Shown: positions 21,353 through 55,600 of the stretch, one piece after another | Layout: every line of letters begins with the position of its first letter | Position numbering within the stretch: position 1 is the first letter of the stretch | NCBI RefSeq assembly: GCF_963678975.1 | Contig: NC_089281.1 | Location: 4,923,277-4,987,276, forward strand | Length of the DNA: 64,000 bases | Direction of reading: 5' to 3' | From: Dysidea avara | Taxonomy: Eukaryota > Porifera > Demospongiae > Dictyoceratida > Dysideidae | The notes under the pieces: model-generated | Database searches by the model: none | The model's input: the letters and a program-made list of their open reading frames with translations, nothing else | What the model was told of the DNA's origin: nothing | Position numbers and translations under genes: made by a program

Positions 21353-22207
21353 AATGAATTTTTGTGGCAGGACGTATGGCTTCATTTGCAAAACCACGAC
21401 TTCCAGGTAACTGCCACCTTAAAAACAGAACAAAAAACATTTCTGCCAGTCACACTACAGAAATTAAAACACTAAAGCCATAACTCATCACCACAAGTCA
21501 ATAGTTATGTGGCAGACAATAAAGAACACAAAGGAGGACAAAAGCATGTATCCACTGCAGTAGGCACATCTCAGGCTAAAGTGATGCTGAACAGACCTTA
21601 GTTAATATTATGTTTACGCTTGGCTGAAGGCAACAATGAGTAATTTGAAGTAAGTGACAATTAAAAAAAAATACAAATAGGTTGGCAGAAAAGTAAAGAT
21701 AGACTTACACTTCTTTGAAGTCAGGTCAGTGATGACTATGTTACAATGGGGTGCTGTGTGAGCACTGACAGTGGGTCCCCCTTCAGTTATCAGATAATTT
21801 AGCTATATAAAATTCATAGACACTATCGAGGTTGCTTTGAAGACTTGGATATGCCCATAACCAGTACTGCCAAGCTTCATGAAGGAGGAGTGGTGCTGCA
21901 GGCTTTTTGGTGATATATTTGGATTTGGACAAGAAAGCACAAACCTCCATATACAGTACTACCATACTGTATGATACTCAATGAACAGATACTGTTTGTG
22001 ATAAACTATTCCAAACAACTTCAAGAGAACCAAAGTCAGTTTTTTTTGTTTTGAAATTCTACTTACTGGCTTAGGATACGAGTTGCTCAGATGCCCAGAT
22101 GTTCCCAAAAATTCCTACAATTTATCACCATTACGAATACTCTTACAGTAGCAAGGGTACTGTATGGAAAACAAGGTAGAGTTATGAAAAGCATGTCAGT
22201 ATTGTAC

Positions 22208-22239
22208 CAAGAGTTCATAATATATATTATGAACTCTTG
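22208..22239. repeat. perfect 32-bp palindrome
   Basis: CAAGAGTTCATAATAT followed by its exact reverse complement, with no loop. The same termini occur at 59478..59534 and 59958..59998 with inserted centres, so this is probably the minimal form of a foldback element. Confidence 0.9.
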
Positions 22240-22301
22240 ATTGTACTGAACACCCAAGATTAACATTTTGAAAACTATAGCTGACACCTATTATTTGAAT
22301 A

Positions 22302-23016
22302 CAGTGGAACCCCTTTAAGACGGACACCATTGGGGAAATGAAATAAGTCCTTTATGTGGAGATGTCCTTACTTAAGGGGTTTTATAAAATTTTAAATGTA
22401 CGAGACTAGACCAAGTGGTGGAGCAAGATGGGTAATGGTACAGATATGATCAGTTTAATAGCAACAGAAGTGATACTATTGAGCATGGGTTACCACCTAT
22501 GGTGTGTGGCCTCTACTACACTATCCAGACAAATAGGCACCACAAAAATTTTACACATGTTCCCATAAATACTTATCTGGATTACTCTGTATTTAACTAC
22601 AGATTATGTAGTTGATCCTGTTGTGCAATTTATTCTTAAAGTGTACTAGCTACTATTTTCAGAAAACCAGGATAAGAAAATTAACAGTACTTGTATACAC
22701 ATTCATATGGTTTCTTGTAACTTCAGTGCTTTGTCTTGCACTTTCTGCTTTAGCTAAATGATGTAGCTAGTTCGATTGATTGTTGTAACTGGCAATGAAC
22801 CTTTGTTACTTGTGTCCGTGATTATTGAGGTGTTGTACTGCAGTGCTTGCCATGTCTGGGAATTGTGCAGTGTCTGGTTTATGGAATAGAGAGGTGTCTG
22901 CTATTGAGGGGGCATTAATACACATAGGTATTGAAGTTGCATTTGGGACTTTATTAATTGTCCATTATAAAGAGGCTGTCCGCCATTCAGGGGTGTCATT
23001 AAGAGGGGTTTCACCG
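22302..23016. mobile_element. pogo-type non-autonomous element
   Basis: 715 bp between TA dinucleotides (22300-22301 and 23017-23018). Left end CAGTGGAACCCCTTTAAGAC; right end, reverse complemented, CGGTGAAACCCCTCTTAATG. It has no transposase. Confidence 0.85.
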
Positions 23017-23019
23017 TAG

Positions 23020-24240
23020 TTTGGATATTCGTGTGCTATAGTATTCAAATACCACAGTAAGTTTCCACATACAAAGCAAATAATGGTTTAGCAATAATGG
23101 TAATCTCCCATCCCCAGGCAGCTGTATAAATGAATAATAAAATGCAATTTACTGGCCCACAATCTAGGAATTCATTGTTTTGTAGCAATTTACCATGTGC
23201 CCACACAATCAATGACCTTGGAGCTACACACTCCTTCATTGTAGTAATTCATTTGATTATGCAGACAGCAAACAAAGTCTAGTACACAGAAACATATCAC
23301 CAAAGACTATTGAAATTGAAAATTTTACATAGCACTGAATTTTAATCTCAATTCTTACACGTAATTGCATTATATACAAATAAGGCAAATTAAAAGTGCA
23401 CCTGTTAGAATCCATAAATTATCTGACAAACCGTACATAAAAACAAAGCCCTTGAATTTCTCTACACAAGGGCATCCAAACTTTTGTTGCAATGCTTTTA
23501 TGGTGGCAGTTATTTACAGCTGACTACGCTATAATGCAAGCTCCAAACAATTTTCTATGGGAGAAATTTGTTACTTCGGTGCGCAGCCCCAAAAGTGCAC
23601 TGGGTTGTCCTTATTTAAATTTGCCAAACTTGGTCTTATTCAATGAGTTGAATCGTATTGACTAAGAATCCATGGTACAAGGCTCTTTCCTCTCTTTTCC
23701 ATTGGTTGCTGTTCAAAATGTTGTATATCACTAGATACACTTTTCATCAAGGACTCTGATAAACGCAAGCCTATCTCTGTAAACTGAAGTATGCAGAAGT
23801 TATGGTGCATTGTTTGGAAAAGACAGTATTTTCCAATATTTTAATTCGTAAAAAATATATACTCAGTACAGTATATGCATCACAGATATGAATAGAGAAG
23901 CCATGTCCGAGGCATATCAGGAAACTGAAACTAAAGTTAGGATCGTTCTTTGTAAAGTCTAAGCAGTCATCTCATCAAGCTCCCGTCAGATGTCTTGTAG
24001 ACATGACATCAAATATGCATAGTGCACTACCCACACTGTGCTGTTAGGAGGACTCACCAAATAAGGAAATGCAAATGGCAGGTATGAGGTATCACAATAA
24101 GCTGTTAAGATAACAACCAGACAATTTGGCAGCTATAAGGTGTACCGTCAAGCCTCGAGAACCAAGCATAAAAGCAGGCTGTGAGGAATTGATCGGGAAG
24201 GCTTCACTACGGACCATCACATCAAAACGGCATCACACAA
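23020..24240. other. duplicated non-coding DNA, no gene seen
   Basis: Part of the large duplication (partner about 40.8-42.2 kb). Neither copy shows a convincing exon here. Confidence 0.4.
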
Positions 24241-24459: not shown

Positions 24460-24655
24460 TACACAACAGCGAAACACTTAAATATTTACAACTACATTTA
24501 TAACACACATACCACTTACCAGTCGCCATAATAACTTCAGTACGGAGTAACTTGCCTAGCTGCTAGCTGCGCTACCTCTAGAAAACAAAGCAATTAAGAA
24601 TTCACGTGATTAAATACTTAATGACGTAATTTATTAAGGAGGTGGTGAATTCGCC

Positions 24656-25284
24656 ATGCAAACGAAAATGGTGCAGCCTTCCTTTTAAGGGTTTACGCGA
24701 GCAACAGGTCACGCTGAGGTATGGGAGGATGAGAAGAAGTTTCAGCAGTTTGGTTGGCGAACAACGACCAGCGAGAGCGCTTTCTTCACACCTACACGCT
24801 AAGGATTTGATGTGCAGGAAATTGCAAAGCTGGAAGCCGCTCAGGTGATGCACCAAATAGCAAGGGAAAATAATATGGTGTTAACGAACACTGAAGCTCA
24901 AGTTATAATACATCAAGTTTTTCATTTTAAATTCACAAGTTGACACCTGTGTGTGAAGGCATACGAACTTGTAGTGGCCCAGTAGCTCGTGTATTATGGT
25001 GAGGGACAAGTTTGAGTGTGCTTGTCTTGCTTGCAGACTTGTTCACAACGGATAATGGTTGTAATATAAAGGTATTGGCATTATCTGCCTGCTTTAAAAC
25101 AGTTGAGTAGTTCCACTTTATATGTGTGCTCTAGCACAGGTCTCAGCGAGCCAGCATTTCCTGGTCATCAACCAGTCCTGGGCACTGCTAAGCTGAAGAA
25201 CTGAAAGACTTATTTGACAACGTCTGAGGAAGCTTATCATTATCACTGACTGCTATTTCTAGAACCTCAAATGATAAACCTTAA
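24656..25284 (+). pseudogene. CFAP68: CFAP68 pseudogene
   Basis: Aligns with the CFAP68 exons at 42507..43497. The first exon opens MQTKMVQPSF and then meets TAA where the other copy has CAA. The rest of the exon is readable in DNA (GTATGGGAGGATGAGAAGAA) but a block is lost before GATTTGATGTGCAGG. The last exon keeps TTTCCTGGTCATCAACCAGT and CTGAGGAAGCTTATCATTA but has a 9-11 base loss and a TGA. Between them, at 25034..25068, is a candidate 35-bp exon (after GCTTGCAG, before GTATTGG) that the other copy appears to lack. One frame of it reads LFTTDNGCNIK. Confidence 0.8.
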
Positions 25285-25429
25285 ATTATGGCAGGTAGAC
25301 AAGTTCTAGTTTTATATATTCAAATACTACAAATGTTTGTCACAGCACATACTTAAAATTTATAATGTATATATGTGCATATGTAAGTATATTTGTACAA
25401 CAGAATTTGAAAATGTTGTATACATACCA

Positions 25430-28400
25430 GAGATCACATATAACCACCTATACCAGGTGTTCTTGTCATGGTATTGTTTCCCCCCATCCCTCGTCTTCTG
25501 CCACATCCAGCACCCTTAGGAGGTGGACATTTTGGTCACAGGGTCTCGATTTCATCAGTGTTAGGGATAACTGCATGGTCAGCAAAAAAGTCACTTGTAG
25601 TTGCTGCTGGATAAGTCTGGACCAAGTGTAAGCCGAGTAAGATGTGTGGAGTACATGTCATATAATATGTACTATTGTAATACAACAATGAGTCATATTG
25701 TGTGTACTAGTTAAATTGTGCTGTATGCTAGAAACACAAGAGTTTTAGCTAAGATATTTTCAAGGATGCATAAAGAATATAGTACATTATGCAAAACACT
25801 GAGCATGCTATGTCCACAAGCATGAGTCCAAAAACAGCAAACATCATCACTCAAAATTCCTACCTGTAGATAATTACAACATAAAATATGTACTATAAAG
25901 CCACCCAATTTCAAAGACAAATTACAGTGAACATACAGGTCACAATAGTATCCCTTGATTCGTGTGGCTATTGGTGGAATGTTAAAGGTTGGAATGGAAT
26001 GAAGAGGGGTGGGGATCACTTATATAATCATGTTCATAGCCGTACACGTAATAATATTACACAGGTAGGTAATCTTCAAGGGCTTGATTATACACAATAG
26101 TACAACAACTTATCCACAGGTAGTGCATTTGAATATAGAACTATGTCTTGAATAACACGAAATAACTGCAGTGAAGCTTACTCCTATAGATGTTTATTAA
26201 TTAACAGTTTAAAACACTAAATTTAATTTACTTGCTGCTGCTGACCTATAATCTAAGGATGTCTATAAATCCATTAGTTATAGACTTGTATTTGGCTATT
26301 AGCCTGGAAGAGGCATGGTACACATCATTTGTATATGTACCCTCGTGATTTGCTTGATATGTACACTCAGGCCTGCAGTCCTCAGGCTTGGGTGTACATA
26401 TCTTGTCAACCATGATACAACTATTACCCTCTTGTTTACTTGTTTCTTAAAAGCATACCTGGTCTTTTCGTATCATCACCACCAAAAAAGTGTATTCTTC
26501 TCCTACCAAGACAGAAATGTTCCATGATGTGAAATATTTCTTCTGGTTTCTTGACTGAACTATATATTCTGACTAACAACCAAGTTTTATAAAAATAGAC
26601 AATACCACAGCTAATTTCTACTTCTAATTATATGTACGTTATGTGTACTGCAAATGTAAATAGTGTGTAACACAATTTCCCCAAGAAAAGCTGTAAAGTG
26701 CAAATGTTCTTTTGTTTTGTAGACACTACACACACCATATGTTACAGTGAACGGTAGCCCATATACTCACCTCTTCAGTGATGATGATATCTAGGTCCAC
26801 ATTAGGATGCTCCAAAACCTTTATTCACTAAAATTTCATCTTCCAATATTCTACCCTCATTTCTGAATGTCTAAGAGTTTTCTCTGCATTTCATGATGAC
26901 CAACATACACTAGTTTAGGTGTACCTATAGAACACTAAGATACATACCTTAGTATGCTGAAACACAGAGCGTGATTCTATGTGTTTCACATTACCCGGGT
27001 TACTAAAGTTGGTCTTCATCCAACAGATGTCTTCACAGTGACGAAACCCCCACTTCTGAAAACACTGTAATGATATATGACATGTAAGTAACCTTAAAGT
27101 GGTCTATTCAACAAGTACACTAGAATAAATGAATACTGTTTTCCTTCTACCTAAACAGCCTTTATATTTCTAGGACTGCTGTCATAGAATCTGCTATTTA
27201 TTACAGGAATTCTTTATTTAATCTGACAATCTGATTGTTGCACTCAGAACACACAGAGGCCAGTCAATTGAAATAGCACATATGGCAGCTCCTTGTATGA
27301 AATATTTATAACAATTGTCACATACTAATAGTTGTACAATGAAGACATTATGAGATTATCATTACCTGCCTCCAAGGTCCAGTCCCTCACAACTACCACA
27401 CCAGAGAAACCTTAAGACACATGATCTGAGAAACAAAATATGCACATATACAGCTTGATGTACATGACCACTCATTATTCATGTTTTTTGATCCCCTAGA
27501 TGTCTTGTAGGATGTTTACAAAGTCAATACAGGGTCAAGAGTGGATGAATTCATATGCGAACAATGAAACATGCAAAAGTAACTCAAATTCTGTTTAAAA
27601 TATCATCAATAATAATGAGTGTTACAAACTCTAAATTATATTTGTTATCCAGCACTTCAATTACAGGAATGATTTATAAATTTATGGCATAATAGGCTCA
27701 AGAAGCAAATACCCAACTGCCCTTGTCTGACACAGTGCATACAGTTTCTTGACTCTCCAAAATTTTATCCATTACACTTGATATAGCTTCCTGTAGGTTT
27801 AACCTGGGGGGGGGGTATTACTTATTACTAGAGCCTGTAAGGGGCGTCCCAGCATTTTCTGGGCAGCAATGTTGCACATATAATGAGACCACTCAGGCTT
27901 TGCTTTCATACAGATAAATGTTGTAGTACTTTAACATCAACTACAATCGACTGTACGTATTTATCTGACCTCTTCAAAGCCCCATGGGGGAAGGTTATGC
28001 TGGACACTTTTCGCTGGTACTCTTCTAGTAGAGGGTTGATATATATGACATCAAAACATTGTCCCTAGTCAGACAAGTTGTAGTCATACATGTCACACTT
28101 CAGGTACCTGGAAAGTAATCAATACAGTGAACTACGGGTGGTTTGCTTTATACCCTATGTGTGTGTGTGTGTGTGTGAGTGAGTGCATACGTGTAATAAT
28201 CTGGCATAGCTGACTTGCGTGCGAAGTGTGAGGGTCTGGTGACAGCCACATTAAACACCTGTGCAAATGGAATGCAATTAATTCAAAACGCGCATGTAAA
28301 CACATGAACAATTTCTGGTTACAGTACGAAGGAGACACTTGAATGGTGACAAACTCATGTTGGATGTAGAATATAACAAACTCACCAGAGAGGAGGCTAC

Positions 28401-28611
28401 TGTGTACTGTTGCCTGTCAATATGTTTCAGTTATATGGCATGCACAAATTAAGTCAAGGCTCAGTGGGAATCATGTCATAGAATGTTGCTGTAATTGATC
28501 TCCAAGCATTTTGATTGGACACACCAGTTTTCTGTAAGACTGGTACAGGTGTGTAATGTGGCTGTCACCAGACCCTCATGCTCCACGCATGGGTCGGCTA
28601 CACCAGACTAG

Positions 28612-28663
<52 letters not shown>

Positions 28664-29650
28664 CGTGCGTGCGTGCGTGCGTACGTGCATTCAGGGTATA
28701 GCGTATTTTTCAGGTTGCAGTTTGAGATATCTGTATTGTTTGATCACTTTACTGCACCGTTTTCCAAGCAACCTGAATTTGACCCAAATCCTTCCTGCTA
28801 AAACATTATAATAAACTTCATCTATAGCCCACAGCATACACAGCTATCAGCTTACATCGGTGGGTTGGCAAATTTGGCTATTTGTAGATCTTTCAGCCGA
28901 ATCAGTTCTTTGAGCTTGCGATAGTCCTCAAACCTGTCCTCCAAGCTTGTAAAAGAGAACACAATGACACATGTACATACAAACATACTGAGTTGGCCAT
29001 TATAGTACCTAGCTCACATTCAGATGTATACCTACTATTCTGTCTCTACTGTCAACGTACATAGCAGTACATGGAATTACGTATAGGAACAAACAGGGAA
29101 TCTTTACATAAGAAAAGAATGTTTACAAAAGCCTTTCAACAGTACAAAAATTGAACTTTTGACTATCTTTTCATAGTGAATCGCACAATTTGTTCATCAA
29201 GAAAACGACCAGGCAGGGAACCAGAGACGTAATACATTGTGGCCTTTGATAGGATTTTTTCTGCATTAAACAGCAAATATTTTCAATGTCAATATTCATA
29301 TAGCGGGATAGCAATCATAAAAGCTCAGTCAGTATTATTTTATGTGGTAGTCTCATGGAGTATTGTGCACATAAATGTGTTATTGTACTGTCAAATTAAC
29401 CCTAAGAAGCAGGTCACCTGGTCAGTTTTTGGGAGTTGGTAGGACCAGAAAACACATAATTAACTTTGTACAACTAAATATTGTGCCCCACCAAAAGGGA
29501 CCAATCCATTACACACAATATACTGCATCATGGATGAAGTTTTGTGGTTGTTGTCCACAAAGTGGTGAGAGTAGTCATTTCTGGGTTGGAGCTATTAGTA
29601 CCTTTGAGGAATACTGTCTTTGTACATCGAATGAATGTCCTCCTGTATGA
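25430..29650 (-). pseudogene. METTL14: METTL14 pseudogene (exons 10 to 3)
   Basis: All exons from 3 to 10 are present in order on the minus strand but damaged. Exon 10 (about 25628..25430) lacks its acceptor and has a 14-bp deletion. Exon 9 is at about 26570..26469. Exon 8 (about 26815..26771) is truncated. Exon 7 (27054..26947) is nearly intact (KWGFR, CEDICWMKT). Exon 6 (about 27425..27368) has an internal deletion. Exon 5 (about 28113..27970) has TAG after CTGAC, in place of the Leu-Gly codons before the Gln-Arg-Phe-Asp stretch. Exon 4 is at about 28950..28857. Exon 3 (about 29643..29523) has 5- and 7-base deletions and has lost the donor. Exons 1 and 2 are absent because the duplication stops in intron 2. 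No functional protein is possible. Confidence 0.92.
28161..28688. mobile_element. inverted-repeat element bounded by (GT)n tracts
   Basis: GAGGGTCTGGTGACAGCCAC at about 28230 is repeated in inverted form near 28560 (GTGGCTGTCACCAGACCCTC). GT-rich tracts lie at both outer edges (28159..28178 and 28613..28688). The matching place in the METTL14 intron (about 49550) has only a short GT tract, so this is an insertion into the pseudogene copy. Confidence 0.7.
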
Positions 29651-30044
29651 TGTGACAAACATGTCTTCTACGATATTGTACACTATATACATGATAGTAA
29701 AACTTGATTTCAAGAGTTAATCATTAATGTATGTTCACTATGTAATTTAAATATCACATTATATAGAGCAGGGTGAAAATAACAGTCAGCCATCATCAAT
29801 CTGCTGATTAAATTAGCAAGTTGCTGTCCATTTCCTTTCTGGTCTGACATATTTCAGTCAACAAAGACAGTTAGTTTATTACCACCTGTGTTTACAGTTA
29901 ACATGAAGACATTTGTTGCTAGATGATAATATAGGTTGGGAGGGATTACAATGTACCACTCAACTGGTTTAGGGCTGTCAGACAACCATCTAATTGATAC
30001 TTTTGAAAACTTATTTTCACCCCTGTAGAGAATGTCACAAGTTT

Positions 30045-31460
30045 GTACAGTGGATTTGTACACAAAGGGAATGTCAATGAGATTGTAGCCATTAGACCTA
30101 TACCTAGCAATTGATAACTGGTAGTGATGACGTAACTGTTAGAAAGAATGTAGGGTAGTATACTGTGGACAAACAATTAGATACACATATATAGAGATAT
30201 CACCTATAGCATTATAGGACATGGAAAAGTGGAATGGAACAGAATGAATTAGTAACCATAATGCTTACCAGCTGGATTGTTTCCAATAATATGACTCTTA
30301 TGATCACCATAATCTACCTATACCTGTAGTCTTATAGTAGTGTGGGTAAACTCTAGTGATGTCACTTGTCTTTGATGACATACCATCTGAACTTATAACT
30401 GTTTGTGTTAATGCCATGTAGCACAAATCCTGCAATTAAAGTGTTGAACTTATACCCGCATTATATGATGGTCAAGATCATTGAAGTGATCCCTTAATAT
30501 CACAATCAATTGATTGTAAGAGTTAGGCCAGGCAGTTTTAAAGTATAGTAAGCAATTACAATGGAGTAACAATCAAAGGGTCAGGCACTGGTGTTCAAAG
30601 CACAGAGGAAGCAAATCTGAAGATTGGTATTCAGTAGTCAAGTAGTGCATTTGGAAAATACAGAATTGTCATTGAAACACCTGATATGTATCATGTATCT
30701 GAGTGAATCACATGTAGAGCAAAATTACTTGTGCTAAAATATACATGCTTAGAGGAATGTGATGTTATTTTGGTGGCTGACCAGAAAACTGTATGCAATA
30801 ACACCGGTATCTTTCACCAATAGCCAGTCAGACGTACCCCATAACTTTAAAGCCTTATAACATTTATTTAATGGTACAAATTAGTGCAACATCAACAGTG
30901 ATAGTACCTTAGCAGCTACTAACTATTAGTTCTTATCTTACAAGTACATACATACATACACATGGTTGTTTGGTGCCAAGTCAGTCAGCAGCAGTTCACA
31001 CTCCATAAATTACGCACAAGATGATCCAAATAAATATCCATGGAGGGAAAAGGAAGAAGGTAATTAAAAAGTGCAACACGTGATTGACTTGAGGCTTCTG
31101 CTTCACATGTATTACTTGTGCCGCAGGTTGCTGTGCATTAACCACAACTACATTGGTACTTTGTTGTTGTTGACCTCCAGATGGATACTGTGGCTGTTGT
31201 GGATATTGTTGGGGATATCCCTGTTGAGGTGGATACCCCTGCTGAGGATATGCAGGTTGTGGGTAGCCTTGCTGAGGGGGGTACTCTTGCTGTGGAGGGT
31301 ATCCATAAGGGGGTACTACAGAAAAGTACAAATATAGACAATTTATATCCGCTAAACTACGAAATGCAGTACAATGCAATAAAGGAATTAAGTTACCATA
31401 TACTGATATAAGGGTAAAGTGTTTTAATGCATCTAGGGTAATGTAATTGATTCTCTCTGT
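30045..31460. repeat. segmental duplication, copy 2 (Pro-rich gene 3' region)
   Basis: Collinear with 8540..10085. It abuts the METTL14-derived duplication at about 30040, where GAGAATGTCACA (shared with 53668) changes to GTACAGTGGATTTGTACACA (shared with 8540). Confidence 0.85.
30996..31315 (-). CDS. Pro/Gln/Tyr-rich small membrane protein, 3' exon (copy 2)
   Basis: The acceptor TTTTCTGTAG is followed by two bases completing a codon, the same phase as copy 1. It encodes about 106 residues: a shorter Pro-rich array ([16 protein letters not shown]), the conserved [12 protein letters not shown] linker, and the hydrophobic C-terminus [20 protein letters not shown] ending VIYGV. Compared with copy 1 it lacks several repeat units but has no stop or frameshift. 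Changes between copies in the membrane part are conservative (I/L, V/I), which suggests selection on both. The upstream exon was not found. Function unknown. The product is probably membrane-anchored. Confidence 0.65.
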
Positions 31461-31868: not shown

Positions 31869-31929
31869 AACTCTAGAGAGTGACTTATCGTCTCAACTAC
31901 TACAGCCTACAGGAATCATCAAAAAAAGA

Positions 31930-32720
31930 CTGTGACTTGCTTGGAGCTGAACTCTCTACAGGGTGACTTGATTGAAGGTAAACTCTATACAGGGTACCTT
32001 GCTTGTAATTGTACTTTCTACAGGAGCCTTGTTTCTAGCTGAACTAACATCAGTGTATGTAGCTGAACTCTCTACAGGATGACTTGTTTGTATCTGAACT
32101 CTCTAAATACAACAGGATTATTTGCTATGCACTGAATGTTCTAATAGGGTGACTGCACTATTAGAATATTTCACAGTCCTCTATAACTAGGTGTTTTTAT
32201 TGTGAATTCTCCGAAAGTTTACTCTACAAACCTATGCACTGATTTTCAGCTTATTCCCATAAGCAGTTTGCCTAGTAAGCATGGCAACTAAATGCTTTTT
32301 ACAAAACTCAATTATGTCATTGTTGCACACCGTTGGTTTTTGTGTTGTACCTTCATAGTCTTAATCTTGATTTCTTTCAACCACCAAAAAGCACTGCTGT
32401 GGTGGTTACTCTAATTACAGACCATTTTTCAACTGAAAACAATTTGCATTTGATCGGATTCCCACCAAAATTGGTACTGAGATTTGCTTTAATAACCCCT
32501 TTAAGTGTGCCAAATTCCAGTTTGATTGGGTACGCGTTTGTGTTTTATGGCCAGTGTGCAAAAGAAGCACAAAAAACAAGAATGAAAAATGTAACTTTGG
32601 CCGCTCATATCTCTGGGGTGATTACCTTCAAATGTGGTATGTGTACTCCCTAACCTGTATACCCACAGTGTGGCTGGCACACAGGTTTCTTGGACACACT
32701 AACATGTGTCTTGATACTAT
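31930..32720 (+). repeat. minisatellite-bearing dispersed element, copy B
   Basis: About six degenerate 31-bp units (GCTGAACTCTCTACAGGGTG) at 31945..32125, then GACTGCACTATTAGAATA, CTGATTTTCAGCTTATTCCC, TTTGCCTAGTAAGCATGGCA, AATCTTGATTTCTTTCAACC and a tail ending ACACTAACATGTGTCTTGAT. It is uninterrupted, so it shows the layout before the pogo insertion in copy A. Confidence 0.75.
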
Positions 32721-33970: not shown

Positions 33971-34618
33971 TAGAGATGGACCGATACCACTTTTTACCAA
34001 TATTTCCGATACGAGTATTTGTACTGAAATTATTTGCTGATACCGATACCGATACTATACATTGAAGCCTAGACAACTTTATTATAGAAATTTCATTGTT
34101 GTGATACATAGCTAGCTATTAAAATTGATTGATCTCAGTTCAATCACGTTTTTAAATACTCATTGTGTAACAGTAAACATGATAAACATTACTAATTTCT
34201 TGATTTGAGGTAGTTTTCTTGTATGCTTATTGATAAGGCAATTAATTGCGTGGGTGGCGGATAATTGTACAGTGTTTGTTACAGCTTTTCAACCAAACCT
34301 TTTCATGAAAAAGCTAGCCAAGTAGTCATAAACTTATTTCTTGAGGAACAACTGCACTACCATTTAATTACAAAGGATTCACATGCTCTAATATATTAGA
34401 ATACACACGGAACAATTGCAGCAATACTTGGAAAAGAGTAACAAAGACTTTGTTTCGCTACTTTGTTAGCTCAACTAAGTTACTGATTAGCTAAACTAAG
34501 TTATTAGCTACTGCTAGAGATGGTTTAATAAAAGTGGTGAGTGTCTACTGTGGTATCTGTACCTTGTATTACCGATACCGATCCGATACCGATACCACTC
34601 GGTATCGGTCCACCTTTA
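33971..34618. mobile_element. hAT-type MITE with 8-bp target duplication
   Basis: Left end TAGAGATGGACCGATACC; right end, reverse complemented, TAAAGGTGGACCGATACC. It is flanked by GTTACAAG on both sides (33963-33970 and 34619-34626), the 8-bp duplication expected of hAT elements. A second copy lies at 50870..51992. Open frames inside are not supported. Confidence 0.92.
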
Positions 34619-38439: not shown

Positions 38440-38870
38440 ACTGCAATGCCTGGTTATATTATCTATCAGATTTGGCTAATTTAGATGATGATGATGAGAA
38501 AGATAAGCCTCCTACCTATCAAAGAAGTCAAAAGGAGAATACAAACTCATGTAGTTCACTGGTGACATCATCGACCCAGCAGACAATAACAGCTTATCTA
38601 AAAGCTAATTCAGAAGTGAAATGATACCAAGATGCTGCAGTGACTATAGATGAAAAAGAGAAATCCCCATTCACTTGGTGGAAGTACAATGCTATGAAGT
38701 ACCCCATTCTGAGCAAGTTGGCTAAGAAGTACTTAGCCATCCCAGCTACATCAGTCCCATCCGAGAGGGCTTTCAGTATTGCAGGTCATGCGTTGTCTTC
38801 TACCAGCATCCCTAGTCTTCTTAGCAGAGAATCTATAGTAATAGAAACTTGTGGTAAAGTTAGTGCTAAT
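38440..38870 (+). pseudogene. hAT transposase C-terminal remnant
   Basis: The frame from 38352 to 38951 is interrupted by one TGA (38622). After it comes the hAT dimerisation signature: [40 protein letters not shown]. This is the C-terminal domain of ZBED/hAT transposases. Upstream acidic text (LDDDDEKDKPPTYQR) fits the linker. The upstream catalytic part is absent. TAGGGCTGAGCGATACTGCC on the minus strand near 39212 looks like a hAT terminus and may be the element's right end. Confidence 0.85.
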
Positions 38871-39056
38871 GCTTACTCCTACTTTTACACTACAGTACCT
38901 GTTGGTGTTGTACCACTTGATGTATCCATTGTTTTTACATGTAATTTTTAGCAGATTGTTACTTGATGTTGTACCACATGACTTACTGTTACTTGTTGGC
39001 TTTGTACCACTTGACTTGATGTACCTTGTTTTACAGACTTGAATATTATTATGAAG

Positions 39057-39067
39057 TGTGTGTGTGT

Positions 39068-39138
<71 letters not shown>
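39057..39138. repeat. (TG)n microsatellite
   Basis: About 40 TG units with one interruption, within the hAT remnant region. Confidence 0.95.
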
Positions 39139-42506: not shown

Positions 42507-43497
42507 ATGGAAACAAAAATGGTGCAGCCTTCCTTTCAAGGGTTTATGCGAGCAACTGGTCACGCTGAGGTATGGGAGGATGAGAAGAAGTTTCAGCAGT
42601 TTGGTTGGCGAACAACGACCAGCGAGAGCGCTTTCTCCACCGACACGCTGATAGGAAATTGGAACGAGGAACGATTTGATGTGCAGGAAGTTGCAAAGCA
42701 GAAGCCGCTCCCATCTCAGGTGAGCTCACCGTAATTTTAAAATGCAAGCAACAACTTGACCAAGGGAATATGAATACTATGGTTAACAACACCATTGTGT
42801 TAGTGACCACTGAAGCTCAAGTTTTTAAATTCACAAATCGACACCTGTGTGTGAAAGCATATGTCACAACTGTAAACAGGACCAGGTGTCCTACAGACCT
42901 TCAGCACTGTGCTGTAAAGCCTTAGTAATAATAAAGAGTTTAGTGTGTTTAAAAAGCTGGAGAAATGGACCTGGGCAGCTTCAAACCTGCAGCCATCTGA
43001 CTAAACTTGCAGTGGCCCAGTAGTTCTTGTATTATGGTGAAGGACCTGTATTGCGTGCTTATTTGTTGCATCATCAGGTGTCATTATCTGCCTGCTTTGA
43101 AACAGCTGGGTTCCCACTTTATTTGTACCAAAAGGATCAGTACTTTACACATTGTTGAAGTGCTTTCTATATCGTTTACCACAGCTTTCCATCATGTTTT
43201 GTCTGTAGTATGGACATTGTTTCTCTACTACCTACACTAATTCCTACAGTCACAGGAAACCACCACCAATGAATGAGCTAAGATATGGACACGAAGGTAA
43301 CACTGTAGACATTCAGTAGCTGATGTATGTGCTCTAGTACAGGTCCCAGCAAGCCAGTGTTTCCTGGTCATCAACCAGTCCTGGACACTGCTAAGCTGAA
43401 GAAAAACTGCAACACTTACTTGACGACATCCGAGGAGGCTTATCATTACCACCGACAAAGCACTGCTAGTTCTAAAACCACAAATGATAAACCTTAA
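42507..43497 (+). CDS. CFAP68: cilia- and flagella-associated protein 68 (C11orf1 homologue), exons
   Basis: Exon 1 is 42507..42719. It opens METKMVQPSFQGFM and carries the diagnostic core GHAEVWEDEKKFQQFGW, then GNWNEERFDVQEVAKQKPLP, ending SQ at CAG|GTGAGC. This matches the vertebrate C11orf1/CFAP68 pattern YGWR...LMGNWNQERYD...PKPLPSQ. An exon at 43250..43296 (HRKPPPMNELRYGHE) and the last exon 43343..43497 (SKPVFPGHQPVLDTAKLKKN, then stop TAA) join in phase and include the conserved FPGHQP motif. Exon 1 ends in phase 0 while the next exon needs phase 2, so an exon is missing. Family role: a microtubule inner protein of ciliary axonemes. It runs tail to tail with METTL14. Whether this copy is intact is open. 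Confidence 0.8.
42874..43005. repeat. rearranged SINE insertion in the CFAP68 intron
   Basis: GGTGTCCTACAGACCTTCAG...CTGTAAAGCCTTAGTAATAA is the SINE tail in plus orientation. It is followed directly by CCTGGGCAGCTTCAAACCTG, the SINE body in minus orientation. The decayed locus has an uninterrupted join (GTGTGTGAAGGCATACGAAC then TTGTAGTGGCCC) at 24950, so it inserted after the duplication. Confidence 0.75.
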
Positions 43498-43664: not shown

Positions 43665-46600
43665 TCACATATAACCACCTACACCTGGTGTTCTTGTCAT
43701 GGTATTGCTTCCCCCCATCCCTCGTCCTCTGCCACGTCCACCACCCTTAGGGGGTGGGGATTTTGGTCGCAGGGTCTCGATTTCATCAGTGTTAGGGATA
43801 ACTGCATGGTCAGCAAAAAAGTCACTATATTTCTCCTTGTTGTAGTTGCTGCTGGATAAGTCTGGACCAAGTGTAAGCCAACCTGTAGTGGAGTAGGATG
43901 TATGGAATACTAGAAGGCACATGTCAGAAATGTGTACATAAATCAAATTGTTCTGTATGCTAGAAAATTGGGAACACAAGATATTATGGATACGCAGTAC
44001 ATAAAGCACCAAGGCTGAGCACTATGTTCACAAACAGGAGATCCTTAAAAAACCAGCAAACATTGTCCCTACTGTAGAGTACATAATAATAAAATTATAT
44101 ATTACATTCTCTTGGTACCACGAAGCCACCTAACTTCAAAGGCACATTTCAATATGCATAATATTATTATGTATCACCAAGAGGTCATAAAAAACTCTTT
44201 GACATCACATAAAACATGTTGAGTTGGTAAACATATTGATAAACGCTGGAATGAAGAGGGACGGGCAATCGCTTATAAATTGTACACATAGCCATAATTG
44301 TAGATTTATGAAACACCATATACTACTGACACTTTGGCATGCAAATCTTAAAGTGGATTAATTATACACTATTTTAAGTACAACCACTCATCCACAAGCT
44401 ATTAGCCGCATGTTCGAATAAAGAGCAACATCCAATTTTGAACAGTAAACGATAACCTTACAATGAAGTAAACCCCTCTAGATGTTTAGCACACTTTGTA
44501 AAACACAGTCATTAAATGACACAGCAGCTGTAAAACTGCTTACCGTACACAAGGAAACTTTAACGTCAGAAAAATTGATGAATTTGACGAATTGGTTTTA
44601 AGTCATCAAATTTATATTTGTCAAATATTTATAAGCGCCTTAAAAGTACAGGTTTTGTCTATAATTTTTTGATTTTCGTCAACATTTTATTAGTCAAATC
44701 TGCTGAAGTATGAATTCATCAAATTTTTCTTACGTCAAAATTTCCTTGCGTACGGAAGCTGAATTTTTCATGTAGGACTTGGCCATTCAAACCTAATTAC
44801 AATGCTGAACCATAATCAAAATTTTCAAGGATCCAATAGTTAAACTTGTATTTGTGATTGGTAGCCCGCAACGGGCTATTAGCCATGATACATGTCAGTT
44901 GTATCATGTACTCGCATGATTTGCTTGATATGTAAACCCACATCTTCAAGCTTGGATGTGCATATCTAGGCAACCATGATACAACTATTAGAGGTGCACT
45001 ACTTTTAGCCAACATTCCACGAACAGATATAAAATAATATTATCAAGCTGATAAACTAAGCCGATCCAATAGCATAGACTTTTCTCTAACAATTCACACT
45101 CTAAATTTAGTTATAAAGTGACTTTAATCAACAGTTGAAATTACATAAATAGGTGTTGCTAAGATATTACTAGTGCACAGTGCCCATAAATAGGTGTTTA
45201 TGGATATCTGTATCTGCTACTTGTTTACACATGTTAACGATCTGATACACGATATGCAAAAACAAGGCCAATGTTGGACCAATCCAGTACACCTCTAACA
45301 ATTATGTGTTACCCTCTTGTTTACTTGTTTCTTAAAGGCATACCTGGTCTTATTGTATCATCACCACCAAACAAGTGTATTCTTCTCCTACCAAGACAGA
45401 AATGTTCCATGATGTGAAATATTTCTTCTGGTTTCTTGACTGAACCATATTCTGGCTAACAAACAAGATATATAACATATACAATTATAAACTAAGTACA
45501 ATTTCTACTTCTAATTATACGTACACATGTGTACTGTAAATACAAATACAAACAGAGTAGATGGTAGCCTGTATACTTACCTCTTCAGTGATGATGATAT
45601 CCAGGTCCACATTAGCATGAATAAAATCTCCATCTTGATTTCTCCTCACTGTACCCTTGATACCCATCAGGCAGTGTTCCTAATATAGTGACAAGGAAAT
45701 CTCACATAAATTAAAACATCCAAAATTTTTATCTGATAAGATTTCAACGTCCAATATTCTACCCTCATTTCTAAACTTTTGTGTGCATTTCATGATGACC
45801 AACATACACTAGTTTAGGTGTACCTATAGAACACTAAGATACATACCTTAGTATGCTGAAACACAGAGCGTGATTCTATGTGTTTCACATTACCCGGGTT
45901 ACTAAAGTTGGTCTTCACCCAACAGATGTCTTCACAGCGACGAAACCCCCACTTCTGAAAACACTGTAATGATATATGACATGTAAGTGTGTGGTGTAAC
46001 CTTAAAGTGGTCTATTCAACAAGTACACTAGAATAAGTGAATACTGTTGTCCGTCTACCAAAACAACCTTTATATTTCTAGGACTGCTGTCATAGAACCT
46101 GCTATTTTACTACAGGAATTCTTTATTTAAGTTTGATTGTTGGTAACATAGTACTGTATATGTAGGAATTTTCGAGGTACAAAACTTTCGCAAATTTTGC
46201 AAGTAATGATAGCTTCGTGAAAATATAATCGTGAAATGTTTCAGGTTTATACACATAGCTGTTACCTTACAAAATCCATTTACTAGACTTTCGCGAAGTA
46301 AAAGGTGTGAAAATTGTATTTTACACAGTTTCACGAAAGTTCCATCCTTCAAAAATTTCCCACTATACGGTATTCAGTTACAATTCAGTGGCCAGTCAAT
46401 TGAAATAACACATATGGCAGCTCCTCTTATGGGAATATTTCAATCATCACACACCACACTTGTGCATTGAAGACATATTACAATTACCTGTCTACCAAGG
46501 TCCAGTCCCTCACAACTACCACACCAGAGAAACACAAAAGACCTCTGGGCAGCAATTTCTTCAATCTTAAGACTCATGATCTGAGAAACAAAAAGATGCA

Positions 46601-49600
46601 CATATACAACTTGATGAACGTACTTCAATGATGACCATTTCAATATTGGTCCCCTAATGTTATCATTAATTAGAGTATATCAAGAGTCCATTGTGGATTC
46701 TATAGTGCAGACTGGTACCTAGACTCCCTACATGTGGATACTTTGAATGGTTAAGCTAGTAGTTATGGTTGGACCTACTTGACATGACCACCATAATAAT
46801 AAGATAGCACATAGTATAGCGGCGTAGCCCGCAAAATTGGCAATATTGTGCACTTTTTCATAAAACCATGAAACTTTCCACATAAATAGTACTCCTCATT
46901 ACATGTAATTTTAGATATAGTGCCATCGCTAAGTTGACCCTTGGTGACTTTTACGGCCATTTTTGTACAGAAAATTGATCATTTTTGTCTTTAACTCCCT
47001 GAGGCAGTAATTAACCTGTTAAAACATGGTACCAAACAAAAGATCTTGTTGGTTTTTATTTGAAGTCAATTGGTGATTTCATTACAAAGTTATGATCATT
47101 TTGGTTGTATACAATCACTGGACTGGACTGGTGGACTGGACTACTGGACTCAGGTATTTTCCCTTTTTTAACCAAATATTTGGGCAACTGGTTGAAAGTA
47201 TGTTAGTCTCATGTAGTTAGACCACTCCCCCACACATAAAGAAACCCACACACAAACCAAAGAAAGGTGTGATCATGCCAGACTTGTCAACATTGCCCAG
47301 CTTCAGCTATGTACAGAGGTTCTAATAGTTCTTGCATGTCAACAAATCTAAAACAGAAGTCACATGCGGTAATTATAGTTTAAAGTTCAAAATGGATCAA
47401 TTTGATTGGTTGAAATCTTGTGCATGTGATTTCACTTGTTATTGCCGTCGTGCAAAAACTATAGAACCTTTTTATCAGCTATTGAATAGCAAGACAGTTA
47501 ACTGTCGCCACTTAATTTAGCTGACTCCATGACTATAACTTGCATGGTTACTACATACTGACACATGTACTGTATGGTTTGTACTTCATGATAAGACAAA
47601 TGGTAGTTGTACAATAGACATTATGCCAAGAGAGAGAATTGCACATTATGCCAAGAGAGAGAATTGCACACAATTCTAAGATAACAGACAGTGCCAAGTA
47701 GACAGATTCACCTGCATATTTTACATTCAATGTAGCAATAGCTACGACCAGTTGCCCAAATATGTGCTAAAATGAAAAACAAACAAAAAAAAACTGAGTC
47801 CACCAGTCCAGTCCACCAGTCCAGTCCACCAGTCCAGTCCACTAGTCCAGTCCAGTGATTGTATACAACCGATCATTTTTACTAGTTGCAAAATTTGATA
47901 AATTTACCTGCCCTCGAGGTGTGAATTACCTGTGGGCAGATAATTATGCATAAATTTATCAAATTTTGCAGCTAATAAAAATACTCCTAACTTAAGAATG
48001 AAATCACCTATTGACTTCAAATAAAAACCAAGTTGTTTCTATCAGCAAGATCTTTTGTTTGGTACCATGTTTTAACAAGTTAATTACTGCCTCAGGGAGT
48101 TAAAGAAAAAATGATTAATTTTCTGTACAAATATGGCAGTAAAGGTCACCAAAGGTCAAATCAGCGATGGCACTATATCTGAAAATACATGTATTGAGGA
48201 CTACTATTTATGTGGAAAGTTTCATGGCTTTATGAAAAAGTGCACAATTTTTTGGTTGTGCCGCTATACTAACATGACGAAGTGAAGTGTGTTGGTTATG
48301 GACTACAACTAAGTGAGCTTAAAGGGTTGAGCCTTGCTAGTGTGCAGATGTAGAGGTTTTAATAATAAGCAAATGTCTTGTAGGATGTTTATAAAGTCAA
48401 TAGAGGAATGAGAGAGGATGAATCAGACAAGCAAAAGTAACTCAAATTCTGTTTAAAAATTACACTAATGGTAATGAGTGTTACAGACTCTAAACTACAT
48501 TTGTTATCAATCCTGCATGTAAACACTTTCAATGCTGTGTACAGGAACAATAAGGAATGATTTGGGAAGCAGGTAAATTTATGGACATAATAGGCTCAAA
48601 AAGCAAATACCCAACTGCCCTTGTCTCACAAAATGCATACAGTTTCTTCAAAACTTTCATCATGAGACTTATTAATAATAGCTTCCTCCTGGATACTAGT
48701 CCTACCAAGAGTATATAATAGAAACCAACAGTGTCGAATGGTGTATTAGTCCATGATTAATGATTGCGTAAAATAACACGAATATCTCAGTAATTGTTTG
48801 TTTACGTGAAATGGTAATTTGAAATGTGTACGTGGCAACAGGTCTTTGTACACCAGTTTTCCGTGTTATTCAACCAAGTATTCAACAGTTATTGTACAAA
48901 GAAAGTGTAGTAAGGACCCAAGATAACCCCAGCTTGCTAAAACAATGATTGCACAAATGAGGGTGTTGCCACGCCTTCAGGACCCGCTTGGCAGTGCCAG
49001 AACTTTAACATTAGCCAATTCTCGTTAACGCTATCATGTTTTCGCTTAGTTTAGTGGCTGAATTGGGCTAAATACAGCAATCCTTAATGGCACTATAAAC
49101 AAATAATTACTGAAATATCCGTGTCACTTTATGCAATCATTAACCAAGGGGTAATACACTTGTTCGATACTCTTGGTTACTATTATATACACTTGGTCCT
49201 ACCACAAGCAGTTATACTTACTACTAGAGCTTATATGTTGTGTGTAAGTATCCCAGCATTTTCTGAGCAGCAATGTTGTACATACAATAAGACCACTCAT
49301 TTCTGTAGATAAATGCTGTAGTACTCTACATCAACATACATACTATATATCTGACCTCTTCAAAGCCCCATGGTTTATGGGAGAAAGTTATGCCGGACAC
49401 TCTTCGCTGGTACTCTTCTAGTGGAGGGTCGATATATATGACATCAAAACGTTGTCCCAAATCAGACAAGTTGTAGTCATACATGTCACACTTCAGGTAC
49501 CTGGCAAGTAATAACACAATAAACTGCTGTACGAGTGGTTTGCTTTATACCCTGTGTGTATGAGTGTGTGCATGTGCATGCGTGTAGGGTATAACGTATT

Positions 49601-52600
49601 CTTCAGGTTGCTTACACAAAAATGTAACAGTCATGTCACATGACAATTTTGTCACTCATTTAAGACAATGATTTCCAACATTAGCTTTAGCTGATGACCT
49701 GCTAACTACAACATTAGTCAGTTTGAGATATTTGTATCACGTCTGATCATTTTACTGCTCTGTTTTCACAAGCCACCATTATAATAAACTTTATCTAATC
49801 AAATCGTTCACCTACAGCCCACACCATAAGCACATACAACCACGGTTAGTCTTAGTGTACACACACATATATACAGGTGTACAGCATATACAGTTATCAG
49901 CTTACATCGGTGGCTTGGCAAATTTGGCTATTTGTAGATCTTTCAGCCGAATCAGTTCTTTGAGCTTGGGATATTCCTCAAACCTGTCCTCCAAGCCTGT
50001 AAAAGAGAACACAATGCCACATCTACATACAAACATACTGTGTACCTAAAATAAAAGTACCCTACCATTATGGTATCTACTGTAGCTCACATTCAGACGT
50101 ATACCTACTACTCTGTATCTACTGCCAACAACGTACATAGCAGTACATGTATAAGGACAACTATAGTTGATATATCAGTTAGACCATTTTTGCATAAGAA
50201 AAGAATATTTACAAGACATGACAACCTTTCAACAGTACAAAAATTATAAACCTTAGACTACATTTTTATGGTGAATTGCACAATTCGTTCAACAAGAAAA
50301 TGATCAAGCAGGGAACCAGAACATACAGGTATATCATGCCATTTGACAGGATTTTTATTAAATATTAAACAGCTCTAATGCCAATATTCTGGATAACAAT
50401 TGCAAAAGCTCACAGTCAAAATATTGCAGTATACTTTATACAGTAGTCTTGTACTAGCCTGCATCGTGGATGAAGTTTTGTGGTCGTTGTCCGGTGTCCA
50501 CAAAGTGTTGAGAGTAGTCGTTGTGTGGGTTGGAGCTATGAGTACCTTTGAGGAATACTGTAGAGTCTTTGTACATCGTCTCCTCCTGTATGATGTGACA
50601 AACATGTTTTCTACGATATTGTACACTACATATATACATGATATAAACATTAAACTGGAAATTTAAAATATCACATTATATAGAGCAGGGTGAAAATAAT
50701 AGTCCACCATTAGCAATCTGCTGATAAAATTAGCAAGATTGCTGTCCGTTTCCTTTCTGGTCTGAGACCAACAAACGGTAGGTAAATACAGTGGACCCGG
50801 ACCCACGGGAATCCAACTCTTCTTGGAATTTTATACACTTCACAATATTCTATACTTGTACTGGATACATAGAGATGGACCGATACCACTTTTTACCAAT
50901 ACTTCCGATACGAATATTTGTACTGAAATTATCTGCTGATACCAATTCCGATATCGATACTAAGCATTGAAGCCTAGACAAGTTTATTATAGAAATTTCA
51001 TTGTTGTGATATGTAGCTAGCTATTAAAATATCACAGTAATTGATTGATCTCAGTTCAATCAAGTTTTAAAATATTCATTAACATGATAAACATCATTGT
51101 GGATTACTAATTTCTTGATTTGGGATAGTTTTCTTGTAAGCTTATTGATTAGGCAATTAATTGCGTGGGTGACCGATAATTGTACTACAGTGGAACCTCT
51201 CTTATCTGGGCGGTCTGGTACACACTACTGTTCGTATCTCAGAAATGCCTGTAACTAAGAATAACATGCTATTATGCTAAAGTGACTAACTTAAATACAA
51301 GTAATGTTGTTATTGCTATCAGTTAGTGGTATGCAGTTTAGTGGGCAGAGGGGAAGTCACTACAGAGCATTCATGGTCACTCCCCTGGGCTGTAAAATCC
51401 ATTATCACCCAGCAACCAAGTGGTAGTTATTATTAGTATAATAAACAAGCCACCAAACAGGTAAACAGCAACCTTTAGGCTCCCTCCTTGTGTTTTCATC
51501 TAATCCAAACTTCATTATGGTCAATAAACTACAAGCTACATGACTAAGTTGGGCTGTCCGGACAACGGTGTCCTGACAGGACAATGGTGCCCGGATAATA
51601 GAGGTTTGGATAAGGGAGGTTCCACTGTATGTTTGTTACAGCTTTGCAACCAAACCTTTTCATGAAAAAGCAAGCCAAGTAGTAGTCATAAACTTTCTTG
51701 AGGAACAACTACATTGCCATTAATTACAAAGGATTCACGTGCTCTAATATATTAGAATACACAAGGAGCAATTGTAGCAATATTTGGAAAAAAGTAACAA
51801 AGGCTTTGTTTCGCTGCTCAACTAAGTTACTGATTGGCTTAACTAAGTTATTAGCTACTGGAAACTTAGCTAGAGATAGTTTAATAAAAGTGGCGAGTAT
51901 CTACTGGTGGTATCTGTATCTTGTATTACCAATACCGATCCAGTGGTATCGGCATCAATACCAATACTGGCACCGGTATTGGTCCACCTTTAGTCTTGCA
52001 TGGCCAATCCACTTTTCCCCCCATCACGCATGGTGTCTCGCACGGTGTTTACACCAATTAGAAATTTTAAGTGCCTCTGAAAAAATGTCGGAAGCTGACC
52101 GCATTTATAGGCCACTGCCTGCTGCACAATCAGCATACTAGGCCTACTAGACAGATGCTAAAAGCATGATGGGGCGAGCCTGAGTTGTGTAAAAAGTGAT
52201 GCAGCATCAACTGTATTTCCATGAATAGCGTTTAATGTGTGTGTTCGTAGCTATATCTACAGAAATGCTCAGGCTACTCTAGAGGTAGCTGGAGAAAGGT
52301 GAAAAAAGTTCAAGTTGGGAGGCTCAGTGGCCTGCCAGTATATAGCTACACAACTGTGTGGAAGCATAGTCAGCTAGAACTTATCTCTCTGTCTTCTGCA
52401 GTTTCATTGGCCAACTGCATGCTCTCTTCTGCGAGTGTACATGACGTCTATCAGGTGTCTACTTGCTTGTGCTTCATTGTGGCATTTCTGCTGCCGTCCT
52501 CGCCCTGTCTTGTTCTCTCCCTGCCTTCTTCTAAGACGATCTTCTTTGTCTATGTAGATAACAAGTTGTAACCCACATGACAAATTCTAAGCCAAGTGGT

Positions 52601-55600
52601 GCAAATATAGCCTTTTTCGTACAGGAAGCTTTCGTGAACGTGACGTACGATTCACTCGGGCATTCAGCAGCCAGTGTTCCCTACTCGCCCTGTCTCGTTC
52701 TCTCCCGGCCTTCTTTGTCCATGTCAATGTAGATAAGAATATTAAATTGTGAGCGAAGTGACAAATTCTAAGCCACGTGGCACACTTTTCCGTGTTCGTT
52801 ACGTAAACTCATGGGAATGGTCAGATGTACGGTCGTACGTACAGTTGAGCGGGGCTGTCCGTGTTCGCTACGTAAACTCTCAGGAATGGTCAGACGTACG
52901 GTCGTATGTACAGTTGAGCACTACCAGTGTGGGGCAGTCCGTGTTCGTTACGTAAACTCTCGGGAATGGTCAGACATATGGGTCAGATGTACAAGTGACC
53001 ACTGCCATTTGTGGGGCTCGCTCAGGCTCGCTCCAATTATGCCGCCTAGCTACTAGAGTAGTTTAGAAGCATTGTGAAAACGCACCGTATGAAGTCTGGT
53101 TGTCGAGCTGCTGGAACTTGCTTAGCTAGTAATCACTATTTCCCTGCAATATTAATTTGTTTGCACAATATTTCTAAACTTTAGTAGCTAGACCATACAA
53201 TAGACTAGTATGCTCATTGTGCAGCAGTTGCGAGTGGCCTATAAATGTAGTCAGCTTCAGAAACTTTTTCAGAGGTGCTTATAACATCTAATTGGTATAA
53301 ACATTGTGCAAGACACCATACGCAATGGGGAAAAAAGTGGATTGGCCATGCAAGATTACTTGCATAGGTACCTAGTACAAGTATAGAATATTGTGAAGTG
53401 AATAAAATTCCAAGAAGAGTTGGATTCCCGCGGGCCCCGGGTCCTCTGGCCCACTGTTTTTACCTACCCATCAAAAAAGGCAGCTATAGTTTATCACTAC
53501 CTGTGTTTACATTTGTTGCTAGGTGATAAAACAGGCTGGGAGGGATTACAATGTACCATAGTGTACACAAGACTTAAGGACAATTGGGTTATGGGGTTAT
53601 GGGCTGTCAGACAACCATCTAGTTGATCTGTATATTTTTGAAAGCTTATTGTCACCCCTGTTAGAGAATGTCACAGCCTTGTGGTATTGTGTAGCTGGCT
53701 CAATGGGAGCATATCAGATTGGAGGTTAAGTTTCCAATAGTCAACCATGATGGATCACTACTGTACTTTACTGCCAGACTACTTACAATAGAATAATAAA
53801 TAGCTCTATAATATTTAACAACAAATCGAATACTGCATTTACTTGGTTAAATGCCGCACTTTCAATAGTAGCCCCACCCGAGTTGTACAATGATCATTTT
53901 GAAAAATAAGGGCTGCAACATCATTTTCGAGTGGTCAAGCTCGAATAGTCACCATTAGAACTAAGGTGATAAATGCCACGGCATTTAACTAAGTAAAAAT
54001 AGACAATTTTGGTACTATATATTGTACTGTATAGGCAGAAATTTTCGCTGGACATTTTTTTGTGGAAAGTTTTCACATATTTTTTATTCACAAAATCCCA
54101 GAAACAATCATTAACTTATGATTACATTTTACAAAGCTGTCATCACTCAAGAAATATGGGAAATTTCTATACTCAAAAAATTCCTTATAAAGCAGTGAAG
54201 CTGTTGTACTGTAAATGCTTGAAATAAGCACAGACAAATAGAGGTGTACCAATAATCGGATCGGCTAAAATATCAGCCACCGATGGTATCGGTACAGAAC
54301 GGCAGGAGGACCGATATCGCAACCGATATTTATACAGTAGGAATAGTTTGTACATAAACAGATTATGCATTGGTTTTCTACGTTACCCATGTGGCAGTGG
54401 CTTATTGTTCACTCTGCAACAAGTTACAAGAAACCATACAAATACACGCAATTCTAGTGTTTGTTGCTGGAAAGCTTATTACAGTCTCTACAAATGAAGC
54501 AGTTATAGAGTACCTTTGTAATAAAAAGAAGGGTCACAGGATAGCCAAGGAAACTTGCTGTACCAGCTTTCTCACAAGCCATTAGAATGCAGATAAAAAC
54601 AGAAATATCTGTGTAAGGCTTCATGGGAGTATACATAAAAATGTTTGTGGGTATCTAATTGTCTGGATTGCACAATAGAAACTCAAGCTGTACACCTGTA
54701 CACTTTTATTTGTTTAAAACTATAATGCAAATATCGGCTTGACTATCGGTTATCGGCTTCTTTTGGTGGCATCAATATCGGATATCGGTACATGCCAAAA
54801 ACCCATATCGGTACACCTCTACAGACAAATATTCTAGAGGACAGAGAACAATACTGTATTTGATTAGACATTTGTAAAACTTGCTCAAACATTGTATAAA
54901 TTTTTACCTTGAAACACTGTCAAGTCCGACTGGCTTTTTGTTCTGGGAGAATTGTCTATCAACGGTGAATACATTATGATTGGATATCACATCCAAGCAA
55001 AATGGACCATGGTCAGACAAACACCATCAGATATGCCACAATTATTCCAAACTCTGATATATTGAAGTTCTTTATACCGTATAGTGGCACAAAGATTTTA
55101 TTTTCGCAAACAGTGGCTAGCTGTCGTAATTAAATTTGCACTTATTTCATCTCATGTGTTTTTGTGCAGGAGTTTCGTGTCCTCTCGCTTACCGTCATGA
55201 AGCAAGAACAAACTGCATATCCTTGAGAGGGTGCATAAAATTTTATTTTTGCAGAGAGTTATGTTCACGGAAATTTGTTCCACACTCTTAAGATTCGTGA
55301 TAAATTATTATAGATGTGGCTATACGGTATGGACTATTAAGCTAGGGATGGAATTTATAGATATGAGCACACATACAATATAATGAATTTGGCATCAAAT
55401 TGAATTGCATACTAACAATGTAGCACACAGGTGGATTAATCAACAGGCTTCTGTATGTCCCCACACCTAACACTGAATTCATAAAATTAATGCTTGCAAC
55501 AAAACATAAAATAGGAATCTTTTAAAACCTCAACACATACACCCATCAAAGGCTGTACTATTGTACATCTAATACAGTACTTGTAGTAGATATTTCTATT

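Follow-up and report, generated by a model that had tools for sequence, protein, structure and literature searches.

The window analysed here, i.e. the whole 64,000-nucleotide stretch of Dysidea avara DNA (contig NC_089281.1, positions 4,923,277 to 4,987,276), most likely contains a real, old tandem duplication that was followed by ordinary asymmetric gene loss. Judging from the assembled sequence, a segment of about 22 kb is duplicated head-to-tail, and the duplication is larger than first described. Each unit carries a gene with PYPPQQG repeats, here called X, together with CFAP68 and METTL14. An earlier reading, made from the letters alone and below called the sequence-only reading, had proposed a segmental duplication; this proposal is supported, but the reading missed the tandem junction at about 30,040, the third duplicated gene X and the probable cause of the decay. 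The units and their junction are as follows.

About 8,537 to 30,039, no strand: unit 1 of the tandem duplication, with decayed CFAP68 and METTL14 and an open X copy (X1)
About 30,043 to 53,675, no strand: unit 2 of the tandem duplication, with the second X copy (X2) and open CFAP68 and METTL14 exons
30,036 to 30,046, no strand: junction; in BLAST the sequence homologous to the right edge (53,675) stops at 30,039 and that homologous to the left edge (8,537) begins at 30,043

The course of events that we consider quite probable is a tandem duplication with a breakpoint in METTL14, the decay of METTL14 and CFAP68 in unit 1, the retention of X in both units and the arrival of mobile elements in both. 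The right breakpoint would lie inside METTL14, with the likely 5' exon (58.6 kb) on one side and the exons of the catalytic fold on the other. Free of constraint, the unit 1 METTL14 would have accumulated stops, frameshifts and splice losses. The convergent neighbour CFAP68 would have decayed in unit 1 as well, in our proposal because a complete copy remained in unit 2, and transposons would have inserted into both units later. In other words, one window would display three fates, i.e. X kept twice, METTL14 probably cut by the breakpoint and dead, and CFAP68 lost from one unit. This makes it a tidy natural example. It follows an ordinary course of gene duplication and leaves current understanding unchanged.

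The junction is marked by two homology blocks, the end of one and the start of the other being separated by 3 bp, in the order that a tandem junction predicts. Its right edge was placed by BLAST and by eye; a local aligner continued to 30,088, where the tail was gapped and poor. The strongest self-match of the window in the self-comparison is the left-edge block itself (8,537-9,715 versus 30,043-31,193), which extends to 9,952 and 31,359, respectively. The outer flanks of the duplication (7,500-8,536 versus 53,676-54,700) gave no match at E values up to 1. Recombination between flanking repeats was rejected because no direct repeat shared by the outer edges was found, and for the same reason end joining or template switching would be the likelier origin of the duplication.

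In the self-comparison, matches in 24.5-29.9 kb are also collinear with 42.4-50.8 kb. When 21.4-30.05 kb and 39.44-53.69 kb were aligned globally, 5,854 columns were placed at 84% identity, and the introns around CFAP68 and METTL14 are part of this homology, i.e. the similarity is not confined to exons. The collinearity that the sequence-only reading had drawn between 21.5-30.04 and 39.5-53.7 kb is thereby borne out for 24.46-30.04 versus 42.3-53.68 kb, introns included, while 21.4-24.4 versus 39.5-42.3 kb shows only patches of homology. These patches comprise seven matches above 32.6 bits, the maximum reached in 100 dinucleotide shuffles; the four best (48.3-68.3 bits) are collinear with 70-84% ungapped identity, and the stretch has diverged more than the remaining unit. 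A translated comparison of 21.4-24.4 kb in search of a further gene gave only short matches among those listed. Neither a tRNA scan (bacterial code) nor an Rfam search at gathering scores returned a hit.

The CFAP68 and METTL14 features of the two units are the following.

About 24,649 to 24,845, plus strand: CFAP68 exon remnant, unit 1, with an in-frame early stop and frameshifts
About 25,125 to 25,312, plus strand: CFAP68 second exon remnant, unit 1, with a stop and a 7-bp deletion
25,422 to 29,654, minus strand: METTL14 pseudogene, unit 1, exons E2-E9 with introns, lesions in seven of eight exons
42,507 to 42,720, plus strand: CFAP68 exon, unit 2, open
43,341 to 43,495, plus strand: CFAP68 last exon, unit 2, open, converging on the METTL14 3' end
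43,665 to 50,585, minus strand: METTL14 exons E2-E9, unit 2, open, 333 codons

Both genes are present in both segments, as claimed before, according to structure and Pfam matches and the exon alignment. The unit 2 copy of CFAP68 scores 81.4 bits against the Pfam CFAP68 model (cut-off 24). METTL14 was identified by comparison with solved structures, where two exons match with E 3.1e-36 and the assembled protein scores 504 bits, and by the Pfam MT-A70 domain; the assembled protein is closer to METTL14 than to METTL3 chains and is identical to human METTL14 at 216 of 320 residues. The claim that this second copy stays open also holds: eight exons were found, all eight acceptors are AG and six of seven donors are GT, the first duplicated exon having a non-canonical GC donor at 50,458 that is needed for splicing. 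Relatives of the METTL14 protein were also sought in collections of viral contigs and genome contigs, and none was confirmed.

The stop codons, deletions and lost splice sites reported for the first copy are all there. In the unit 1 METTL14, E2 has deletions of 5, 1 and 7 bp and an insertion of 6 bp, the acceptor AG of E3 is displaced by one base, E4 has a stop and a 7-bp deletion, and E5 has deletions of 32 and 1 bp. E6 is free of lesions. E7 is missing the acceptor and the first 43 bp (about 60 bp in the global alignment), E8 has a 2-bp insertion, and E9 contains a stop, an insertion of 4 bp and a deletion of 14 bp and has lost its acceptor. The unit 1 METTL14 retains its introns, is disabled by lesions and shows no trace of constraint, which makes it an unprocessed (duplicated) pseudogene; no essential difference from others of this kind was seen. 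A processed pseudogene was rejected, since the introns are kept. Literature searches, judged by title, on METTL14 pseudogenes and tandem duplication gave no animal METTL14 tandem duplicate, and among the listed matches for METTL14 in sponge genomes no title dealt with sponge animals.

The replacements between the METTL14 copies are one-sided. The comparison covered 285 of the 333 codons (48 gapped codons were dropped) and found 28 differing residues, stops included. Human METTL14 agrees with unit 2 at 18 of these and with unit 1 at none; it agrees with neither at nine, and one is unaligned. Unit 2 equals the human protein at 179 of the 285 compared codons, so the changes strike conserved sites at about chance frequency. 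The pN is 0.041 and the pS 0.056, i.e. a pN/pS of about 0.73 with no sign of lasting constraint. The exon differences are also skewed in composition: unit 2 has GC where unit 1 has AT in 22 of them, and the reverse holds in seven, as compared to 99 and 98 in the noncoding differences (Fisher p 0.010). Hypermutation of unit 1 is unsupported, the noncoding GC/AT differences being symmetric. Taken as patterns in the sequence, the one-sided replacements and the GC/AT skew fit a free unit 1 copy and a constrained unit 2 copy.

A probable reason for this asymmetry lies at the 5' end of METTL14, where two candidate exons were found beyond the right breakpoint.

56,617 to 56,680, minus strand: tentative METTL14 linker exon, short and charged, with a good donor, outside the duplicated unit
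58,563 to 58,784, minus strand: likely METTL14 N-terminal exon, weak match to human, outside the duplicated unit

The minus-strand open reading frame at 58,563-58,805 resembles residues 4-44 of human METTL14 with a score of 45, as against 33 for the runner-up among 2,142 open reading frames, and none of 300 shuffles reached this score. The match is weak, i.e. the same stretch falls below zero bits in the full structure search, and the exon alone gave no match in the PDB set at E values up to 10. The linker exon was chosen by its acidity and its donor among 332 candidates, all pre-filtered for phase, and it lies outside the 12 candidates that are most similar to the human sequence. Both exons occur once in the window, past the right breakpoint at 53,675. 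Since the likely N-terminal exon is single and lies beyond the breakpoint, the unit 1 METTL14 was probably born 5'-truncated, without its start and promoter. Small-scale tandem duplications with partial gene copies resemble this case in that the span misses a part of METTL14. Such spans are treated in two papers: in young Caenorhabditis elegans paralogs, short duplication spans that miss a part of the gene are associated with faster, asymmetric divergence (PMC3637608), and compact spans yield unequal gene copies (PMC2728529). A section heading of the former paper states that duplicate pairs containing a pseudogene do not show greater asymmetry at the sequence level. In contrast to these small partial duplications, the unit described here comprises several genes and combines a twice-kept X, a probably cut METTL14 and a lost CFAP68.

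The distribution of divergence along the units is less simple. By strict alignment, the noncoding divergence is 240/2235 (10.7%, range 8-12%), comprising 55/679 (8.1%) within 60 bp of exons and 185/1556 beyond; the lenient alignment gives 480/3231 (14.9%). In the latter the exons differ at 5.6% of sites, and the difference rises with distance from them, reaching 7.6% within 1-20 bp, 11.4% within 21-50 bp and 15.0-18.6% further out. The synonymous divergence of METTL14, 10/178 (5.6%), is below the strict (p 0.029) and also below the lenient noncoding value; as compared to the near-exon noncoding sites, the deficit does not reach significance (Fisher p 0.34). Given the near-exon value of 8.1%, the low synonymous divergence is less of a sharp anomaly, though it is still low against 15%. 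Moreover, the divergence is over-dispersed between alignment windows, with a chi2/df of 5.0 versus 0.60-1.94 in 18 simulations at a uniform rate, the control being imperfect in that the number of gaps was 104-124 in the simulated alignments and 186 in the observed one. The low synonymous divergence and the over-dispersion together suggest that a single event at a uniform rate does not explain everything.

Gene conversion, local constraint or rate differences are possible sources of the exon-centred peaks of identity. One reading of these peaks is that the two METTL14 copies both functioned at first and that unit 1 died later, its exons having been kept similar to those of unit 2 by selection or by gene conversion. 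The gradient away from the exons and the over-dispersion would be expected under a late death, but selection at the protein level alone does not produce a low synonymous divergence, the synonymous deficit is not significant against the near-exon sites, and the pN/pS ratio gives no sign of lasting constraint. We regard a late death as rather unlikely. It is about equally doubtful that short conversion tracts, lying on the exons and on the X-side 200-bp island described below, kept overwriting a METTL14 that was already dead; if they did, the exons of the pseudogene would appear younger than its own introns.

The following length differences and insertions were located.

About 28,197 to 28,610, no strand: MITE-like insertion in unit 1, next to (GT)n, with inverted repeats of 68 bp (81%)
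33,971 to 34,618, no strand: second copy of the element at 50,870-51,992, exact 8-bp target-site duplication, without the nested MITE
42,864 to 43,003, no strand: length difference, with related repeats at 31.6 kb and 8 kb
44,989 to 45,297, no strand: hAT-like MITE in unit 2, one mismatch in its 8-bp target-site duplication, empty site visible in unit 1
46,151 to 46,385, no strand: MITE in unit 2, terminal inverted repeats of about 60 bp (71%), possible TA target
46,812 to 48,271, no strand: DNA transposon in unit 2, terminal inverted repeats of about 275 bp (87%)
48,707 to 49,195, no strand: fold-back MITE in unit 2, exact 8-bp target-site duplication
50,777 to 53,468, no strand: nest of insertions in unit 2, the outer element having inverted repeats of about 100 bp and a decayed target-site duplication

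The six insertions that the sequence-only reading had named in unit 2 all exist as length differences, at most about 40 bp away from where it had placed them and exactly there at 44,989 and 46,812. Terminal inverted repeats were found in five of the six. In the one given as 42874, long inverted repeats and a clear target-site duplication are both absent, so that either copy may have changed. The ends of the element at 44,989 are hAT-like. The insertion given as 50789 begins at 50,777 and consists of at least four nested elements: inside the outer one lie two others (50,870-51,992 and 51,991-53,358), and the first of these two contains a TA-flanked MITE (51,188-51,627). The claim that empty sites are visible in the decayed copy applies to 44,989; at 48,707 the unit 1 counterpart is too diverged for a clean empty site. 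Likewise, the order of events read from these insertions stands where a target-site duplication, judged by eye, is clear, i.e. in two of the six (44,989 and 48,707), and it is decayed at 50,777; it does not extend to the remainder. The picture of one copy decaying and the other gaining transposons is correct as regards the decay of unit 1, but unit 1 has an insertion of its own, i.e. both units have gained elements. Where target-site duplications are present, the insertions give a hint of the kinds of DNA transposon that moved after the segment was duplicated; the spread between the terminal repeats of a DNA transposon is no clock.

The copy-specific elements also bear on whether there are two loci at all. 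In a false (heterotype) duplication, one locus is assembled as two divergent haplotypes side by side, as in the case of ZBTB11, whose copy is described as adjacent to itself in PMC9516828. Adjacent divergent copies are what we see here, and a layout of left flank, copy, copy and right flank is equally expected from such an artefact. On the other hand, the strict noncoding divergence, the transposons specific to one copy and the replacements that fall 18 to none are at odds with it, the window contains no N, and an ancient METTL14 null allele would have to be maintained as one haplotype. Judged from the assembly, a haplotype artefact is unlikely in view of the strong divergence, the decay of one side and the insertions specific to one copy.

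The left part of each unit contains gene X, for which one coding exon was compared.

9,518 to 9,901, minus strand: X1 coding exon, PYPPQQG repeats, hydrophobic C-terminus
30,996 to 31,313, minus strand: X2 coding exon, unit 2 copy of the X1 exon

The exon is open in both units, and all four coding gaps (6, 15, 18 and 24 bp) keep the frame, as compared to 4 of 20 noncoding gaps that are divisible by three. With a pN of 0.037 (9/246 sites) and a pS of 0.115 (8/69), both copies of the exon look constrained. No Pfam match was found for X1 or X2. The sequence downstream of X differs at 81/905 sites (9.0%), similar to the 10.7% around CFAP68 and METTL14, which fits the prediction of one event. Between X and CFAP68 (about 10.1-21.4 versus 31.5-39.5 kb) no reliable collinear alignment was obtained, and both stretches contain transposon-derived sequence. 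This gap in homology would suit a moved copy of X next to an unrelated local duplication of CFAP68 and METTL14, a pair of events that we consider very unlikely given that the blocks lie 3 bp apart in the order of a tandem junction and have similar divergence.

Beside X there is a 200-bp island (8,721-8,920 and its unit 2 copy at about 30.2-30.4 kb) that is 99% identical in surroundings of 82-92%. It has two differences in 198 positions (P 1.6e-6 under 9% divergence, for a stretch picked after inspection). By eye it is exon-like in unit 1, and the unit 2 copy has a 2-bp deletion.

Several other features were observed in the window. A long open frame at 5,364-7,646 (plus strand) with a NACHT domain (Pfam E 5.5e-20) and weak leucine-rich-repeat matches corresponds to an NLR-like gene. 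Broken pieces of a Tc5/pogo-type transposase (DDE_1, HTH_Tnp_Tc5) lie at 13,296-15,080 (plus strand), and a fragment of a hAT transposase dimerisation domain lies at 38,625-38,948 (plus strand), between the two CFAP68-METTL14 copies. A minisatellite of 30-31 bp is dispersed in both orientations (15,822-16,128; 31,932-32,105; 60,961-61,556; 61,737-61,822), and long (TG)n tracts occur at 3,273-3,424 (152 bp) and 39,056-39,138 (83 bp). Finally, a repeat of about 430 bp is found in opposite orientations at 17,382-17,786 and 56,023-56,447, the two copies being 77% identical.
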